The notes below the pieces were generated by a model. That model was not told the DNA's origin. It was given only the letters and a program-made list of their open reading frames with translations, and did no database searches. Source: Antedon mediterranea (lineage: Eukaryota; Echinodermata; Crinoidea; Comatulida; Antedonidae). From it: a stretch of 64,000 nt of DNA. The stretch's first letter is position 1. Each line of letters starts with the position of its first letter. This document shows, in pieces, positions 2,239-51,749 of the stretch. Location: NCBI RefSeq assembly GCF_964355755.1, contig NC_092675.1, positions 28,110,912 through 28,174,911 of the forward strand, given 5' to 3'. The translations under genes were made by a program, and so were the position numbers.

Positions 2239-2382
2239 TGTCAAACTAGTTTGACAAAAAAAATGTGATGTGCCCAAATATGGTAGTGATATGCCCAAAG
2301 ATGGTAGTGATATGACATCATCGTGTCAATATATGGGCACATTTTTTTGTCACATAAAATTTGATAGTGTAGACAGAGCTTA
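2239..2382 (-). mobile_element. MITE copy a (palindromic, ~145 bp)
   Basis: One member of a short palindromic element whose better copies begin AAGCTCTGTCTACACTATCA and end with the reverse complement TGATAGTGTAGACAGAGCTT. This copy has a degenerate left end, an internal duplication of GGTAGTGATATGCCCAAA, the core TGACATCATCGTGTC, and an intact right end. Other copies are at 3454, 13324, 14599, 18597, 33584 and 35608. Confidence 0.85.
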
Positions 2383-2811
2383 AGTGTAGTTTAGTTTTTA
2401 GGGAACATCCTGGTTATTAGACATGAAAATTAAACTTAAAATGACGATAGCAAGAAGGAAATAAACCTAGATTGTTTAATTCATTTATTCCTTTCGATTC
2501 TTCTATTGATATCTTATTTAAATCTAAAATTTGTTTGAGTGCTTTCAATTGTTCTTATTGTTGTTCTTGTCATTTCCTCTTGTATGTATTCCATTGAGTG
2601 AGATCCTTGCTTTTAATGTGAATGAAATACATACAAAAGTACTATGCATCAGTATGTTCTAAAATAAATGCATGTTCAAATTTCCTTAAAATTTATTGAG
2701 TTACAGTATGTACTAATTTGAATCGTTTTTTCAAATTATACATTCAATAATTAATGCAAAATGTATAACTGTCAACCGCAGAAATACAGTTATCATCAAA
2801 TCCAACCTGAA

Positions 2812-2863
2812 GCATACACCATAGAGATATTATAGTGAACTATAATATCTCTATGCATACACC
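2812..2863. repeat. Perfect hairpin bracketed by a 9-bp direct repeat
   Basis: Two 16-base arms (2821-2836 and 2839-2854) are exact reverse complements with a 2-base spacer. The direct repeat GCATACACC lies immediately on both sides (2812-2820 and 2855-2863). This looks like a short palindromic insertion with target duplication, or a template-switch event. Confidence 0.9.
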
Positions 2864-3453
2864 CACTGTTTAAAAAAAAATAGCTTTAAAATGTTAGTGT
2901 TGGTTTAATTCTTAAAAGTTGGTCTACTTTAATAATGTACATTTCATTTGCCAGACAATGTGTACATAGTACATTAAAGTTCAAAAATCAGACCATTAAA
3001 TTTATATATTTCCTACTGTAGTGTAGGTGCTATGTGGTTTACATCTTTAGCATTAGTCAAGGGAAATGATCACCTTCTATGGTTTAAAAAAAAAGTTGTT
3101 TGCTAAACGGAAAGTACTTCGGTGGTTGATATCATCACTTTAGAAAGTTTAATAATGCTTTTCAAACAGCAGACTTTTTTGTGTGTTGCAGACTTGTTGG
3201 CAGAGGAATGTTTTTTCATATGCAAAAGCCGGTTTAGTTTACAAGTCCTTATTTTATTTAAAAAGTACCTTTAGGATTTTATTCCAGCTTTGTGACCTAT
3301 ATGCATCCTTCTAAAATTATGTATTGGTTATTATTTAAAAGGAAAAGAAAATGTACTTGTTGTTAGAAATGTAACTTTGTTACGTGAGTAGCTCCTCATA
3401 TAATATTTCCAAATTAAAATGCTTTCGCACACTGGTTTGTCAGGGTATAATGT

Positions 3454-3609
3454 AAAGTTCTCTCTACACTATCACACTTTTTGTGACAAAAAAATGTGAT
3501 GTGCCCATATATGGACATGATGATGTCATATCACTACCATAATTGGGTATATCACTACCATATTTGTGCACATCACACTTTTTTGTCAAAGATATTGTAG
3601 ACAGAGCTA
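3454..3609 (+). mobile_element. MITE copy b
   Basis: Same family as the copy at 2239 but in the opposite orientation. The left end reads TCTCTACACTATCACAC and the right end TGTAGACAGAGCT. The core GGACATGATGATGTCATATC and two ATATCACTACCAT repeats are present. Confidence 0.88.
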
Positions 3610-3614
3610 GGTAT

Positions 3615-3687
3615 ACATAACCATGGAGTAAGGAACTCCATGACATAACCCATGGAGGTAATTTTACCTCCATGCATTGCATAACCA
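3615..3687. repeat. Two adjacent hairpins separated by CATAACC repeats
   Basis: CATGGAGTAAGGAACTCCATG (3622-3642) is an imperfect-loop hairpin. The second (3651-3673) has 11-base arms starting CATGGAGGTAA. CATAACC occurs three times, before, between and after them. Confidence 0.8.
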
Positions 3688-44769: not shown

Positions 44770-47700
44770 ATGAAGTGGTGGATTTTCTTCTGTTGTTTTG
44801 TTTTTCTCATAGACTTTGGAAATTCACAAAACGGTAAGCCCAATACCAATGTTTATCTTCAACTTTTAGAGCAACTTTTAAAATTTGTTTGAAATAAAAA
44901 CTTCTCGGTGCTACATGGTTTTGTGGTGCTATAAAGATAACCGTAAGATTACCGTTTTTTTATTTTATACTTCTAATTTCACTACTAATCCCGTCAACTG
45001 CGTAGGCTTAATTACAAGTATTTTCTGGAAAAATTGATTGTTCTTTGGATTTATTTACTTTATATTATGCTTTAAATATACATAAATCAGAGTGAATTAC
45101 AACTTTTAGCACTAGAAAGGTTCTATAACCATCACTTTTAAAAAAGGACTTTTATTGTACGTGCTAGTTCTGTTGAACCACTGTCGGAAGAGGTTACGAT
45201 AAATGCATGTTTTATATTTGATAGATATTTGAAAGGAAGAAGAATGCCATTTGACCATTTTACTTATTGGTCTATTTCGCTATAAATATTGTTTTCATAT
45301 TTAAAAGACAAACAATATAAATATGATTTGGAATTTAAAAGTCTTACTAAATGTCCAGTGGGTGTTCTTAATAAATCGTGGAAAAAGAAAAGCATGGATT
45401 AATCTTCCAATATAACAAGTTAATTAAACAATTTTTTTTTAATGTAATCTTTTTATTTAATTTTCTCCATTTTTCCTGTTTACTGGACAATTGTTAGCTA
45501 TTTTTTCCTCTTTGCAATGTTTTTGTATACCTTTTTAAAAATGTTATTTGATTCACTGTGATGGAAAGTTATCACACAAAGCACCGTATAAATAAACGTT
45601 TTTATCAATAATTGTCTTATTGCTTATAGAAATACAATGTTCTTTGAATTCTAAATTACTTAATGCAAAGTAAAAATAATGTCGTAAGATGATTTAACTT
45701 TTACAGTTTCAAGAGAATTCCCGCCTCAAGTACTTGAAGAAAAATATTTGAACTCTTGCAGAAATCGCTGTCAGACATCTTCGACGTTTAGTGAGTGCGC
45801 CTGTGATGATTCGTGCCTATTCTATGGCGACTGTTGCAGAGACTATTTATACTACTGTGGCGATGATTACAAATTCAAGACAATGGAATCGTCTTTCAAA
45901 AATCAACTCGCAATTTCAGCAGATCCAACAAAACCTCGATGGAATTGTGTCAATGATCCCGAGGGCATTCAGCCATCTTTTGAAGGAATATTAGTCGTAG
46001 TCACTTGCCCGCCGATTTGGACTATTGAAGACATCAGACGGAAATGCGAAGAAGGAAGACTTTACGTAGCAACGGAAGATTTGGTATATGATTCCAGAGG
46101 TTATGTGTACGTAAACCAATTCTGTGCCATTTGTAATATGGATACTGCATTTAGGAGCAACAGTACGCTGAACATTAATGGCACATTTAACAGCCTATTA
46201 AACACGACAGAGTTTGTGGTTGAAGGAATCAGCGCAGAAGCTACCCAGTTGCGGCAATGCCCTTTATTTCTTGACGATACTTGTCTTCCGAACCATCCAG
46301 ACAGTGTGGTGGTGTTTGGTTGTACTGCTTTTTTGGAAGGTTTCTTATGGTATAAAAATTACATGTGTGAACAATGTAATGCATTTGTTATAGGTAAATC
46401 ATAAATAATATTTGACAGATATTTTAAACCCGAAAGTACTCTTTAATAATGCCATTTGACCAGTTTACTTATTGGTCTATTTCATTATTAATATTATTTT
46501 GATATTTAAAAGACAAGCAATATAAATGATTTGGAATTTAACAAAGGCTGCAGTCGCGTGCGCAAATTTGAGTTAGTGTTTACCGACCGACCGACCTACC
46601 GACAAACTGACCGACATTGTAAGCTACAGAGTCGCGTTGCACGACGCGACTAAAAACCTTACTAAATGCCGAGTGGGTGTTTTCACTAAATCGTGCAAAA
46701 GGCCTGGATTAATCTTCCAAACAATATAACAAGTTTAAACAAAAAAAAACTTATTTATTTTTCTCCATTTTTAGTCGCGTGTTAGTCGCGTGCAAACGCG
46801 ACTCTAATAGCTCTCTATGTTGGTCGGTTGGTCGGTCGATCGGTAAACACTAACACAAATTTGCGCACGCGACTGCAGTCATGTATGGCCTTGTTCCAAT
46901 TATGTCATCTGTTATCCACTGTGTATGGAAAGTTATCACATAAAGCACAGAAATAAATCACTTGTATATTGCTTAGAAAAATACAATATGTTTTTAAAAT
47001 TCTAAATCAAGTAAAAATAATGTCGTAGGATGATTTTAAATTTTACAGATTCAAGAGAATTCCCGCCTCAAGTAATTGAGGAAAGAATTAGGAACTCTTG
47101 CAGAAATCGCTGTCAGACATCTTCGACCTTTGTAAGTGAGTGCGCATGTGATGATTTGTGTCTATTCTATGGCGACTGTTGCAGAGACTACTTATACTGC
47201 TGTGGTAATGATTACAAATTCAAGACAATGGAATCGTCTTTCAAAAAACAACTCGCAATTTCAGCAGATACAACAAAACCTCGATGGAATTGTGTCAATG
47301 ATCCCGAAGGCATTCAACCTTCGTTTGAAGGAATATTAGTCGTAGTCACTTGCCCGCCGATTTGGACTATTGAAGACATCAGACGGAAATGCGAAGAAGG
47401 AAGACTTAACGTAGCAACGGAAGATTTGGTATATGATTCCAGAGGTTATGTGTACGTCAACCAATTCTGTGCCATTTGTAATATGGATACTACGTCCAGT
47501 AGCAACAGTACGCTGAACATTAATGGCACATTTAACAGCTTATTAAACACGACAGAGTTTGTGGTTGAAGGAATCATCACAGAAGCTATCCAGTTGCGGC
47601 AGTGCCCTTTATTTCTTGATGATACTTGTCTTCCGAACCATCCAGACAGTCTGGTGGTGTTTGGTTGTACTGCTTTTTTGGAAGGCTTCTTTAGTAACAA

Positions 47701-49437
47701 TGGAGCGTATAAAAATTACATGTGTGAACAGTGTAATATATTATTGATTACAAGTGAATCAGTATGGCGTGATGATACAACTAATAGTATTATTGGTTGG
47801 TCGCCGCCAATAATTGAAATATTTTACTTACCACCGAAATTAGAAATAATTGAAGTGCAAAAGTGTAATGTAAATGAGTTTTATGACGACAGTATTCAAC
47901 GATGTCAGAATTGTGAAAATGGAACAATCATTACAGAGTCTGAATACCTTTCTGCTCAAAATGCATTGGACATCACACTACTTGTAGACTCACGTGACGA
48001 CGATGGCAGTGGTTATAATTCTGTAACCAGCAGAGAAGAACCAAGAGATAGTAACGATGGCAGAGCACCATCTTCTGCCGACACATTTGTTTGCATCACA
48101 TCTTGTAATGTCATTGAACAAGATGGTACAGAGAATCAACCTACTGAAGACGACGGTTGGATTACCTTGTCAACAAACGGTTCAAAACTTTCGTGCCGCA
48201 TTTTAAAGAACGATCTTGTTAATGTGACAACTGGACGTCTGTTTTCATATGACAGCACGATGACTGTTCTGAACATATTAGTTTGTGTAATATCATTAAT
48301 AGCGCTATTTGTGTCCATTTTAACTTTATGTTGTTTTCGTTCATTACTTAATCTACCCGGTATCTGTCGTCTTTGCCTCATGATATCAATTTTCTTTGCA
48401 CAGTTTATAATGCTAACTATTGCCTACATAACTAAACCACGACAACTCTGTACTGGGACAGCCGTTGTAATGCACTTCTTCTGGCTAGCCCTTTTTTCAT
48501 GGAGCAATGTTCTAGCATTTGATTTAGCACGAGTGTTTGGAACTCAGTCATCAAGACCTAGTACGTCGAAGAAACGACGTCTGCTTGGCTTGTATGTGCT
48601 TTATGGCTGGGGACTTCCTCTGATCATTGCAACATTGTCCACCGGCCTTCATTTTAGCGGTAAATTTGATTTTAGTTACGGAGGAGAGACATTTTGTTGG
48701 TTTTCGGATAGACACTCACTCCTACTCGGCTTTGGTATTCCCGTATCAATTTGTATTGCTTTGAATTGTGTTTTATATTTGATAACTGTTGTCGGAATTT
48801 GGAAGGTTCACAGAGTTACCGAATTTGCTGTTCAAGAGAATCAAAGAAGAAACAAACGAAAGGATGAACTCAAACTATATATTAAGGTACGTATACATAA
48901 TTATTGTATTTTTGTTGATTGAACAAATGCGTTGTTTGATAGCCTTGATTGAACGCATTCAAATTTTAGGGACCAACTGACTGACTGCCTTGATGCCTTG
49001 GTTGCTAAATGTAGACTTAAACAGACAACTTATTGACTTGACGTAGTCGACTATCGTGGACATTGTCTTTCTGGAAATTCTTAACAAAGTCTGCGTCTGT
49101 ATATAGAAAATAGAATAAAAAATAGATGAATAAAATTAAATTGAAAAATATAGAGAAGGAATTGATACTGCTACATATTGTGATATTCAAATTTCATTCA
49201 TTAATTCAGTTATCTATTTTAATGGGAGTGACGTGGAGTTTGGTATTCATCACTGTATATACCGATGAACCTGTTCTCTGGTACATCTTCATAATCCTCA
49301 ACGGACTACAAGGATTTTTTATATTTATTGCGTTCACGTGTAATCATCAAACGCTGGCTATGTGGAGAGGGGCGTATACTACACACATTGCATCACATTC
49401 AAGTTCTCGACAGTTGACGAAAAGCACGTCAGTATAA
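44770..49437 (+). CDS. Somatomedin-B family-B-like 7TM receptor
   Basis: A predicted plasma-membrane receptor; the ligand is unknown. Exon 1 (44770-44833) encodes a signal peptide (MKWWIFFCCFVFLIDFGNSQ) and ends in phase 1. The main exon 47049-48886 follows, then 49210-49437, giving 709 residues. Near the N-terminus is a somatomedin-B module (SCRNRCQ.., ECACDDLCLFYGDCCRDYLY, CC). A long Cys- and N-glycosylation-site-rich ectodomain follows. TM1 starts at NILVCVISLIALFVSIL; further spans include FFAQFIMLTIAYI, VVMHFFWLALFSW and LYVLYGWGLPLIIATL. TM6-7 on the last exon read MGVTWSLVFI and LNGLQGFFIFIAF, typical of the adhesion/secretin/Methuselah-like group. I see no GPS autoproteolysis motif before TM1, so it is closer to the Methuselah-like architecture. 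An extra ectodomain exon lies in intron 1 (45707-46393). Confidence 0.86.
45707..46393 (+). CDS. Duplicated ectodomain exon (SMB module), phase 1-1
   Basis: This 687-base block is a close copy of the first third of the receptor main exon, starting after TTTTACAG and keeping the somatomedin-B cysteines (SCRNRCQ.., CACDDSCLFYGDCCRDYLYY). It is open throughout. Its two length differences from the 47049 copy, a 3-base and a 12-base deletion, are both in frame. A donor-like ATAG|GTAAAT closes it in phase 1, so it could be included between exon 1 and the main exon to give a two-module receptor of 938 residues. If not spliced there, translation stops at 46402-46404, giving a secreted ectodomain. The donor lies at the duplication junction and has no counterpart in the other copy. 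It may also be a non-functional relic. Confidence 0.7.
46548..46651 (+). mobile_element. Short MITE, left of an inverted pair
   Basis: Starts CTGCAGTCGCGTGCGCAAAT, has an ACCGACCGACCGACC core, and ends CACGACGCGACTA. Absent from the equivalent place in the other duplication unit, so it inserted after the duplication. Confidence 0.85.
46771..46879 (-). mobile_element. Short MITE, right of an inverted pair
   Basis: Diverged reverse complement of the 46548 element (GGTCGGTTGGTCGGTCGATC, then CACAAATTTGCGCACGCGAC). About 120 bases of ordinary intron sequence separate the two, so they are two insertions rather than one element. Confidence 0.85.
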
Positions 49438-51749
49438 ACTCGAGTTCTCGACAGTTGACGAAAAGTACGCTGAACAAGTTTCTATTTTCTTTGAAGAAAA
49501 TTCTAGTTATAAATTAATTATGAATTGAAATAACAAACTATAGGACATGTTGACAATACACACTCTTTCTGTTGATAGCTTTGTTGTACCCAGAGATTAA
49601 TGTCGTTACCATTGTTGTTGATTTATTGTCTTATTCAGCATAGGCCTAACTTATTGAAACACTAAAATACAACAAACAACTTTCCTTATTAATGACAAAT
49701 TTTTGCGTTGTGTTTAGTTTTGTATTTTTTTTTTTTTTTGTAAAAACATTTGTTGCGAAAATTAATTTAAAAATGAATAAATCTAATTTTGTTCTATATA
49801 TTATACGTTATGTATGTTTGATTTGACGTTATTTTTCCGCCGGTAAACACATTTGCGTTCAATGCTGCTAACGTCAATGGGTTCTCCCGAACCATAAAAG
49901 CCTGAACAACATCGCTATGAGTGTAATTTGGGATGGACCTCTTTATATTGTTCTTTCTGTTATTCCAATGTTCATTGTAAAAGTTCCCACCGCCGGTACA
50001 TTAAAGTTCGCAGTTTTTCAGTCAAGTTAATGCAAAAGGCATTAGCCGTTGACATGAATAACACCAATTGTTAGTTGTCACTTGGGGCTACTGTCTCGGG
50101 CAACTTACAGGATAGAGTTGCTGTTATTGCTGTTTTAACATTCTATACACATATGCGGACAATGTCCAACAACTTTTATTCGTATGGCTTTTCACATGAA
50201 TACATTTTTTACCCCTCCTATTTGGTGTCCCCCGGGAAAATTTACAGGATATGACCCGGCAGCAATATTGATTATTGAATCTTATTCATATATCTACATA
50301 ATCAGCCCATCAAATCTTTTATAGCTGTTCACATGAATACATTCTCTGGGCGCCCGGTCTAAGTTGGTAGGTTATTAAATCAACGTCCTTAAAGGGGATT
50401 CCCCACTTGTATATTAACAACGAACTATGCGTCAAAAGCATCCATTGCTCCGTCGTCGATTCCCAATTGTGTGTCGCCGGACTCGCCGCACGCCACATAG
50501 GGAAAAACTGTAGATGTAAAATGTAATCATTGTTGTAGATTCTACAAAACTAAGAACATTTCACATATAGATAAGTGTATAATTGATAAAAAGTTTCAGT
50601 ATCGTATCGTAGTATTAATTTTTGTTTCGCGACCCATAGGTTGCGGAACAGCGAGTTAAAGTCTAGGTCGTACGGCAAAACATTGTGTTTGAACACATTA
50701 ATAACAATCTCTCTCATAATGAGTTTAGATAACGTTCATATGAGCTCATTGAATAATTAGCATCCTGTGTATATGACCGTAACAGTTGGCCAGACAAATG
50801 TGATAAGTAAGAAAAAACAATTACTATGAATATGATCTATTCATTGCAATAATTCGGACAGAAACAATGTCATGTTTACTAATAATCTTGCGTTCCGGCG
50901 GACCAGTTATTTTTTTATTTGATTATAACTATAAAAATAATTTATATAACTACGGATAACATATTCAACAACGCCGTTGGATATTCGTCCACCCCAGTTA
51001 AAGTTTTTGAGTATGGATAAATTATAAAACATGCATGCCTGCCTGCATACATGACATTGACGCGCAACTTAGTGCGCATGGGACTATTCCATTATTAATT
51101 TAGGAACATATCATGTGGACATTGTCACAAATATCAAAGAACCGTGCATGAACTATTGTGCAAGAAATTATTTTGCACGTTTGGTTCTAAAAAGTATGCA
51201 TATCATTTCAAGTATCCAAATTCAATATTGATACGATGAAATTAGCAGGTTAATATAATATGCTTAGTTGGTACTAGAAAAGACTAAGTTAATTTAAGCA
51301 CCTGACTAGACGGAAATATCGCCGTTCGAAGACTTGAACAGGTTCTGTGAGTATCTCCTACTAAGGCAACTTGTAGTTGTGGCAGGATCGTCTATATATT
51401 ATTGGTAAATATGTATATATTACTTACTAAAACCCTAGAAAACTCCTAGGCCTTTGGACTTAACCCAACATCATAAATGTTTGGAATGCTCCAGGGTTTA
51501 GTAATCTCAGTCAGGCAGGTCATTGCAGTAAACATTGTGGATAGCTGACCTAGGCCTAGCCAATATCAATATCTCTTTATTAAACAATAAATATTTTCTA
51601 TCCCAAAATGTTGCATATTTAGTTAAAATTGAACCAGAATCTACTTTTATTATTATTACTTTAAGATGCTCACTTTTGTAAATTTTGATTTTTGTTCATT
51701 CAACCTGTTTTTTTAAGCACTGACCAGTATAGGACACATATATGGTCAA
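49438..51749. other. Intergenic stretch between receptor and DHCR24
   Basis: No gene supported. AATAAA at 49776 is a candidate poly(A) signal for the receptor. A GC-richer block at 49834-49965 recurs at 60228-60352. Confidence 0.5.
49834..49965. repeat. Dispersed repeat, copy 1 (see 60228)
   Basis: TTTTTCCGCCGGTAAACACA, GGGTTCTCCCGAACCATAAA and GAACAACATCGCTATGAGTG are shared in the same order and orientation with 60228-60352. Its nature is unknown. Confidence 0.85.

Follow-up and report, generated by a model that had tools for sequence, protein, structure and literature searches.

In the crinoid Antedon mediterranea, a gene for a somatomedin-B (SMB) and class-B seven-transmembrane (7TM) receptor lies on the forward strand of the window, the stretch of 64,000 nucleotides (nt) of DNA analysed here (C6:28110912-28174911, C6 being the contig that holds it). 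The end of intron 1 and the first 713 nt of exon 2 of this gene are duplicated in tandem, and the copied part of the exon, exon 2', may well be a functional coding cassette exon that adds a second ectodomain module to the receptor. The genome searched was the 354 Mb assembly of 18 contigs. In positions of the window, the exons are the following.

44770 to 44833, forward strand: exon 1, with an ATG start, a hydrophobic signal-like peptide (MKWWIFFCCFVFLIDFGNSQN) and the donor ACG/GTAAGC, ending in phase 1.
45707 to 46393, forward strand: exon 2', the candidate cassette exon, 687 nt, phase 1-1, with an open frame and AG/GT flanks.
47049 to 48886, forward strand: exon 2, with the SMB domain, the cysteine-rich ectodomain and the greater part of the 7TM domain.
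49210 to 49437, forward strand: exon 3, with a phase 0 acceptor and the end of the 7TM domain, followed by the stop codon.

For exon 1, the position of the ATG and the joined frames were checked, and a paralog on contig C3 has a matching first exon. The exon-2 frame belongs to class B (Secretin/Adhesion superclade) by its match to 7tm_2 (PF00002; E 2.3e-21, 76.6 bits against a cut-off of 20.6), and the remainder of this domain in the exon-3 frame scores 20.2 bits, slightly below the same cut-off. An SMB domain (Somatomedin_B, PF01033) stands N-terminal to 7tm_2, as in the SMB receptors of the amphioxus/Mthl type. It is found in exon 2 (E 3.6e-06) and again in exon 2' (E 3.4e-07), where it is accompanied by a cysteine-rich region with 18 cysteines in the exon; the two copies score 30.9 and 27.6 bits, both above the cut-off of 23.1 bits. 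The GPS model expected of an adhesion G protein-coupled receptor (GPCR) proper was not among the Pfam matches listed for the exon-2 frame at E<=1, where filters drop most matches above 0.1, and the arthropod Methuselah ectodomain Methuselah_N (PF06652) was likewise absent from the matches listed at E<=1. An NCBIfam search with two proteins returned no family. A sequence search of the PDB at E<=0.1 gave six sequences, every one matching the SMB stretch (query residues 12-56); the best was 9ftw, a uridylate-specific endoribonuclease, and the next vitronectin. At the far end of the gene, a 30-nt direct repeat (93%) occupies 49399-49469, one copy preceding the stop codon of exon 3 and the other closely following it.

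The duplication and the sequences that it created are laid out as follows.

45200 to 46401, forward strand: copy 1, the 3' part of intron 1 and part of exon 2, with an approximate left edge.
46402 to 47761, forward strand: copy 2, in the parental position and continuous with the rest of exon 2.
46401/46402, forward strand: duplication junction, followed by an in-frame TAA at 46402-46404, so that read-through past the donor adds only the residues GKS.
46394 to 47048, forward strand: new intron of 655 nt made by the duplication, with the donor GTAAAT and the acceptor of exon 2 (TTTTACAG).
46546 to 46880, no strand assigned: opposed pair of dispersed elements, present only in the intron of copy 2, with approximate outer limits.

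A first, sequence-only reading of this stretch had described 45707-46393 as a copy of the SMB-bearing ectodomain part of the main exon, and the alignment of this block to its counterpart at 47049-47753 upholds the description; its coordinates, open frame, 1-1 phase and splice dinucleotides were all verified. That reading had begun the region at 45209, which is slightly late, the intron homology reaching about 45200. The homologous stretches of exon measure 695 nt (45707-46401) and 713 nt (47049-47761). They share about 93-94% of their bases and 90% of their residues (protein match E 8.1e-138), with 39 mismatches in 693 positions (5.6%) by nucleotide alignment and 46 in 684 by codon alignment. 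As had been proposed, all indels keep the frame: the gaps of the codon alignment are of 3, 12 and 3 nt, which the nucleotide aligner splits (1, 3, 8, 4, 2, 1, 1) with the addition of a compensating pair of single-base gaps. The intron parts differ by 9.2, 14.3 and 10.6% over 120, 70 and 141 aligned bases, and only 3 of their 13 gaps in 331 aligned nt are multiples of three; these figures exclude the poorly aligned intron at about 45421-45539. With adjacent homologous exons of matching phase and splice sites, the locus is a tandem exon duplication. Both copies, including much of the intron, are still alignable, which makes it possible to trace the origin of the donor and the selection on the frame.

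The closest paralog found in the genome is the one on C3, with 66% identity over query residues 23-632. It too has three exons in this layout and contains the module once; searches for the module by protein and by DNA listed one place there. Since this paralog has one module, the duplicated arrangement of the C6 gene is probably the derived state, unless C3 lost a copy. Copy 1 and C3 each have 18 cysteines in the module, against 19 for copy 2 over the same span. The additional one is the TGC at 47198-47200 in the SMB stretch of the parent exon, where exon 2' and C3 have the tyrosine codon TAC; it is therefore the parent, and not the copy, that departs from the common count. Because the 18 cysteines are kept, the module could form its disulfides unaided.

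The receptor family is an expanded one: the exon-2 protein has 27 matches in the genome, where separate pieces of a gene count individually, and 33 SMB matches exceed the Pfam cut-off. Members of the family lie on contigs C1, C3, C5, C6, C7, C10 and C11 of the assembly (G000). The member on C10 (L007, G000:C10:1712000-1720500) has a partial upstream copy of its own, on the reverse strand at about 2341-3626 of that locus, which includes the first exon of that gene and about 0.9 kb of its large exon. The C6 and C10 cases together indicate that the family has gained a partial upstream copy on at least two occasions. The C10 copy has 10.9% substitutions and 12 gaps in 851 aligned bases (7, 8, 26, 1, 5, 1, 29, 25, 6, 3, 3 and 2 nt) and is decayed: a stop interrupts its frame at the SMB domain, and the frame is shifted close to the end of the copy. 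As its exon divergence is about twice that of the C6 pair, this one case illustrates decay and is not a matched control. Elsewhere in the family, two tandem receptor copies on C5 (L008, G000:C5:29296800-29306500) have a coding sequence broken over several frames and are possibly pseudogenes or genes with extra introns.

Selection on exon 2' was assessed with a codon model of three sequences (copy 1, copy 2 and C3) over 225 codons. This carries out the comparison of replacement with synonymous change (omega) between the copies that had been suggested as a check. The copies sit 1.3 kb apart and share one age, so equal times for both are a reasonable setting, under which omega is 0.36 for exon 2' and 0.28 for the parent. 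Fixing omega at 1 for copy 1 then costs 3.68 log units and is rejected (likelihood ratio test statistic, LRT, 7.35; chi-square p 0.007). A simulated neutral copy 1 reached this LRT in 0 of 200 runs and, in a larger set, in 3 of 600; on subsets of the data the counts were 2/250 (codons 1-218), 0/250 (without a tract of low divergence discussed below) and 0/250 (both limits together). The neutral estimate is 0.08 changes per site and copy, or 0.16 per pair, and the intron divergence is 0.10-0.16 when corrected; an estimate at or somewhat above the latter is to be expected, because the worst-aligned part of the intron was excluded. The survival of the frame was simulated in 4000 neutral runs per setting, with copy 2 as a stand-in for the ancestor. 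With substitutions only, 7.4% of the runs left the copy with an intact open frame; the frame was kept in 1.1% with only the observed number of indels and in 0.2% at lower rates of substitution and indels, and at the indel rate of the intron it was kept in none. Exon 2' thus seems to have been selected as protein since the duplication. The sequence-only reading had already supposed such selection on the frame, and this part of it stands under equal times, with an omega of 0.36, in-frame indels and the decayed C10 copy on its side; with free times, a neutral exon 2' by itself is not rejected, as discussed below.

The same reading had placed the donor of exon 2' exactly where the copied homology ends, as a site made by the junction. 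The homology, however, runs 8 nt further. When the 14 nt at 46388-46401 (TTATAGGTAAATCA) are set against 47748-47761 (TTACAAGTGAATCA) in the frame-keeping register, 11 of the 14 bases agree, and the three mismatches are all transitions. Of 20000 shuffles, 9 equalled this match in that register and 114 did so when any of 17 offsets was allowed. Past 46401, the sequence matches the left edge of the intron (TAAAT...) and departs from the exon, which suggests that the copied exon sequence probably ends at 46401, 8 nt beyond the end of exon 2'. From homology that runs to this point it follows that the donor would be exon-derived and that the junction contributed the in-frame stop; a donor created by the junction was rejected on the same ground. 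The derivation of the donor region from exon sequence is likely, though not certain, and rests on the 14-base match. The site reads TATAG/GTAAAT in copy 1 and TACAA/GTGAAT at the matching place in the exon of today's parent, and by the consensus the copy 1 donor looks stronger, with a G at -1 and an A at +3. At the donor, the C3 paralog is too diverged to polarise the two copies; the donor of its exon 1 is also GTAAAT.

The new intron harbours the opposed elements, whose arms at 46548-46607 and 46819-46878 are 93% complementary and enclose old intron sequence. At least 44 other matches in the genome were listed for the left element copy, 40 of 1599 first-look candidates having been scored. The pair gives the new intron a strong predicted hairpin (z -11.79, equalled by 0 of 20 shuffles).

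Four products can be predicted from these exons. Splicing 1-2-3 gives product A, of 709 amino acids (aa). Splicing 1-2'-2-3 gives product B, of 938 aa, with two SMB and cysteine-rich modules in series, in frame because both borders of exon 2' are in phase 1. Product C, in which exon 2' runs into the intron, has 253 aa and ends in GKS at the stop 46402-46404. Product D, in which exon 2 is skipped (1-2'-3), has 269 aa with an out-of-frame tail of 19 residues and its stop at 49268 in exon 3; this route is an addition to those listed by the sequence-only reading. Products C and D both have the signal peptide and both lack the 7TM part.

We regard it as fairly probable that exon 2' functions as a coding cassette exon, born by partial tandem duplication, that adds a second ectodomain module. 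The intact frame, the GT-AG borders, the 1-1 phase, the selection tests and the 18 kept cysteines support this interpretation, as do the single module of the C3 paralog, the higher divergence of the introns and the decay of the C10 copy. A number of points weigh against it. It is drawn from the genomic sequence of one assembled genome of one individual. When times are left free, omega is 0.35 for copy 1, 0.29 for copy 2 and 0.43 for C3, and the test does not reject a neutral copy 1 by itself (1.34 log units lost with omega fixed at 1; 2dL, twice this loss, 2.7; p about 0.10). Nor does it reject a neutral copy 2 by itself (1.60, 2dL 3.2); the neutrality of both copies together is rejected (6.13, 2dL 12.3). 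In raw counts, 22 of the 39 differing codons are replacements and 17 are synonymous. Their polarity by C3 is weak: 6 of the 39, including 2 replacements, are assigned to copy 1, and 9, including 3 replacements, to copy 2, which leaves 24 unassigned. The donor has an A at +5, which departs from the consensus. Finally, a tract of 164 nt (about 45982-46145) holds only 2 differences between the copies (permutation P 0.0099; for the longest identical run, P 0.091), a hint of gene conversion, which could help to preserve the copy.

This tract of about 164 nt is also what would favour an unused young copy, held similar by conversion and still unbroken, as does the free-times test that leaves the neutrality of copy 1 standing (2dL 2.7). 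We consider this account unlikely. Conversion erases differences of both kinds, synonymous and replacement, and on an unused copy omega would stay near 1; without the tract it is 0.33, and 0 of 250 simulations reach the observed statistic. The indel load of the intron also predicts many frameshifts in such a copy. Constraint may itself explain the low divergence, since the tract is more conserved against C3 as well (14 of 54 residues differ, vs 30 of 88 and 44 of 83 elsewhere). As omega is little changed without the tract, conversion alone was rejected as the principal explanation.

It is less likely still that exon 2' serves mainly to produce a soluble competitor for the ligand, an ectodomain in the form of product C or D. 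Both reading frames exist, product D would escape nonsense-mediated decay (NMD) because its stop at 49268 sits in the presumed last exon, and the intron has one AATAAA, at 46952. However, the intron has no other AATAAA, and this one sits some 550 nt downstream in an AT-rich stretch. A stop such as 46404 on a retained intron makes the transcript an NMD target unless it is polyadenylated within the intron, which counts against product C, and a form running into the intron would have no need of a donor. For product D, the skipping of the 1.8-kb exon 2 is hypothetical here. The genomes of invertebrates are often highly heterozygous, and a second haplotype could have been put in tandem by the assembly, yet this is very improbable for a pair whose introns differ by 9-14%, with elements inserted in one copy only, and whose copied segment is partial and joined inside an exon. 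On this divergence and partial copy, the artefact was rejected as the principal explanation.

If exon 2' is indeed a cassette exon, its origin can be outlined. A nearly blunt join, visible in the alignment, set a copy of the end of intron 1 and the start of exon 2 beside the original, and the duplication provided a second genuine acceptor. In the copy, a coding GT of the exon would have been recruited as donor, the sequence downstream becoming the intron of 655 nt. Inclusion of exon 2' would give the 938-aa double-module receptor and its skipping the ordinary 709-aa receptor; the frames for both are present in the gene, and their use is our extrapolation. The double-module form would alter avidity, reach or specificity for the ligand. 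A more ambitious scheme, which we hold to be quite doubtful, would have the one duplication give three outputs, namely the receptor with one module, the receptor with two and, by skipping of exon 2, a secreted ectodomain immune to NMD. Their balance would be set by splicing of the new intron, with the hairpin gained later, and the module would since have been kept by selection.

Tandem exon duplications have been described as generally abundant (PMC9013439), and the literature offers several points of comparison. B7-H3 (CD276) has 2Ig and 4Ig isoforms that arise from tandem exon duplication and differ in soluble release (PMC3172298). As in B7-H3, an ectodomain exon is duplicated in tandem and a double-module form, here predicted, stands beside a single-module one. 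B7-H3 is a vertebrate membrane protein of Ig domains with transcript and functional evidence (PMC3172298), whereas in Antedon a part of one large exon of a 7TM receptor is concerned and the case is known from DNA alone. The birth of introns through tandem duplication is already known as well (PMC2891723), and there as here duplicated exon sequence activates a latent splice site and a new intron results. In that system, both borders come from a duplicated AG/GY proto-splice site within an exon; in the present gene exon sequence would account for the donor only, the acceptor being genuine.

Receptors that combine SMB with a class-B 7TM domain have been described in amphioxus (PMC2246102), SMB-bearing Mth/Mthl homologs in N. 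vectensis, B. floridae and S. kowalevskii, and lineage expansions of Mth/Mthl that include the sea urchin (PMC4768249). The Antedon family resembles them in its domains and its expansion (PMC2246102, PMC4768249), a likeness by domain content and not by a tree, and differs by the duplicated ectodomain exon, which the available parts of these two sources do not mention for the amphioxus or Mthl receptors. A narrow open-access search of the literature found no ectodomain exon duplication in an SMB receptor. Confirmed by RNA, exon 2' would be a young and well-kept case in which one partial exon duplication yielded at once a new exon, a new intron and an ectodomain that is modular. It would also offer a testable route by which an expanded receptor family may produce variants without a new gene.

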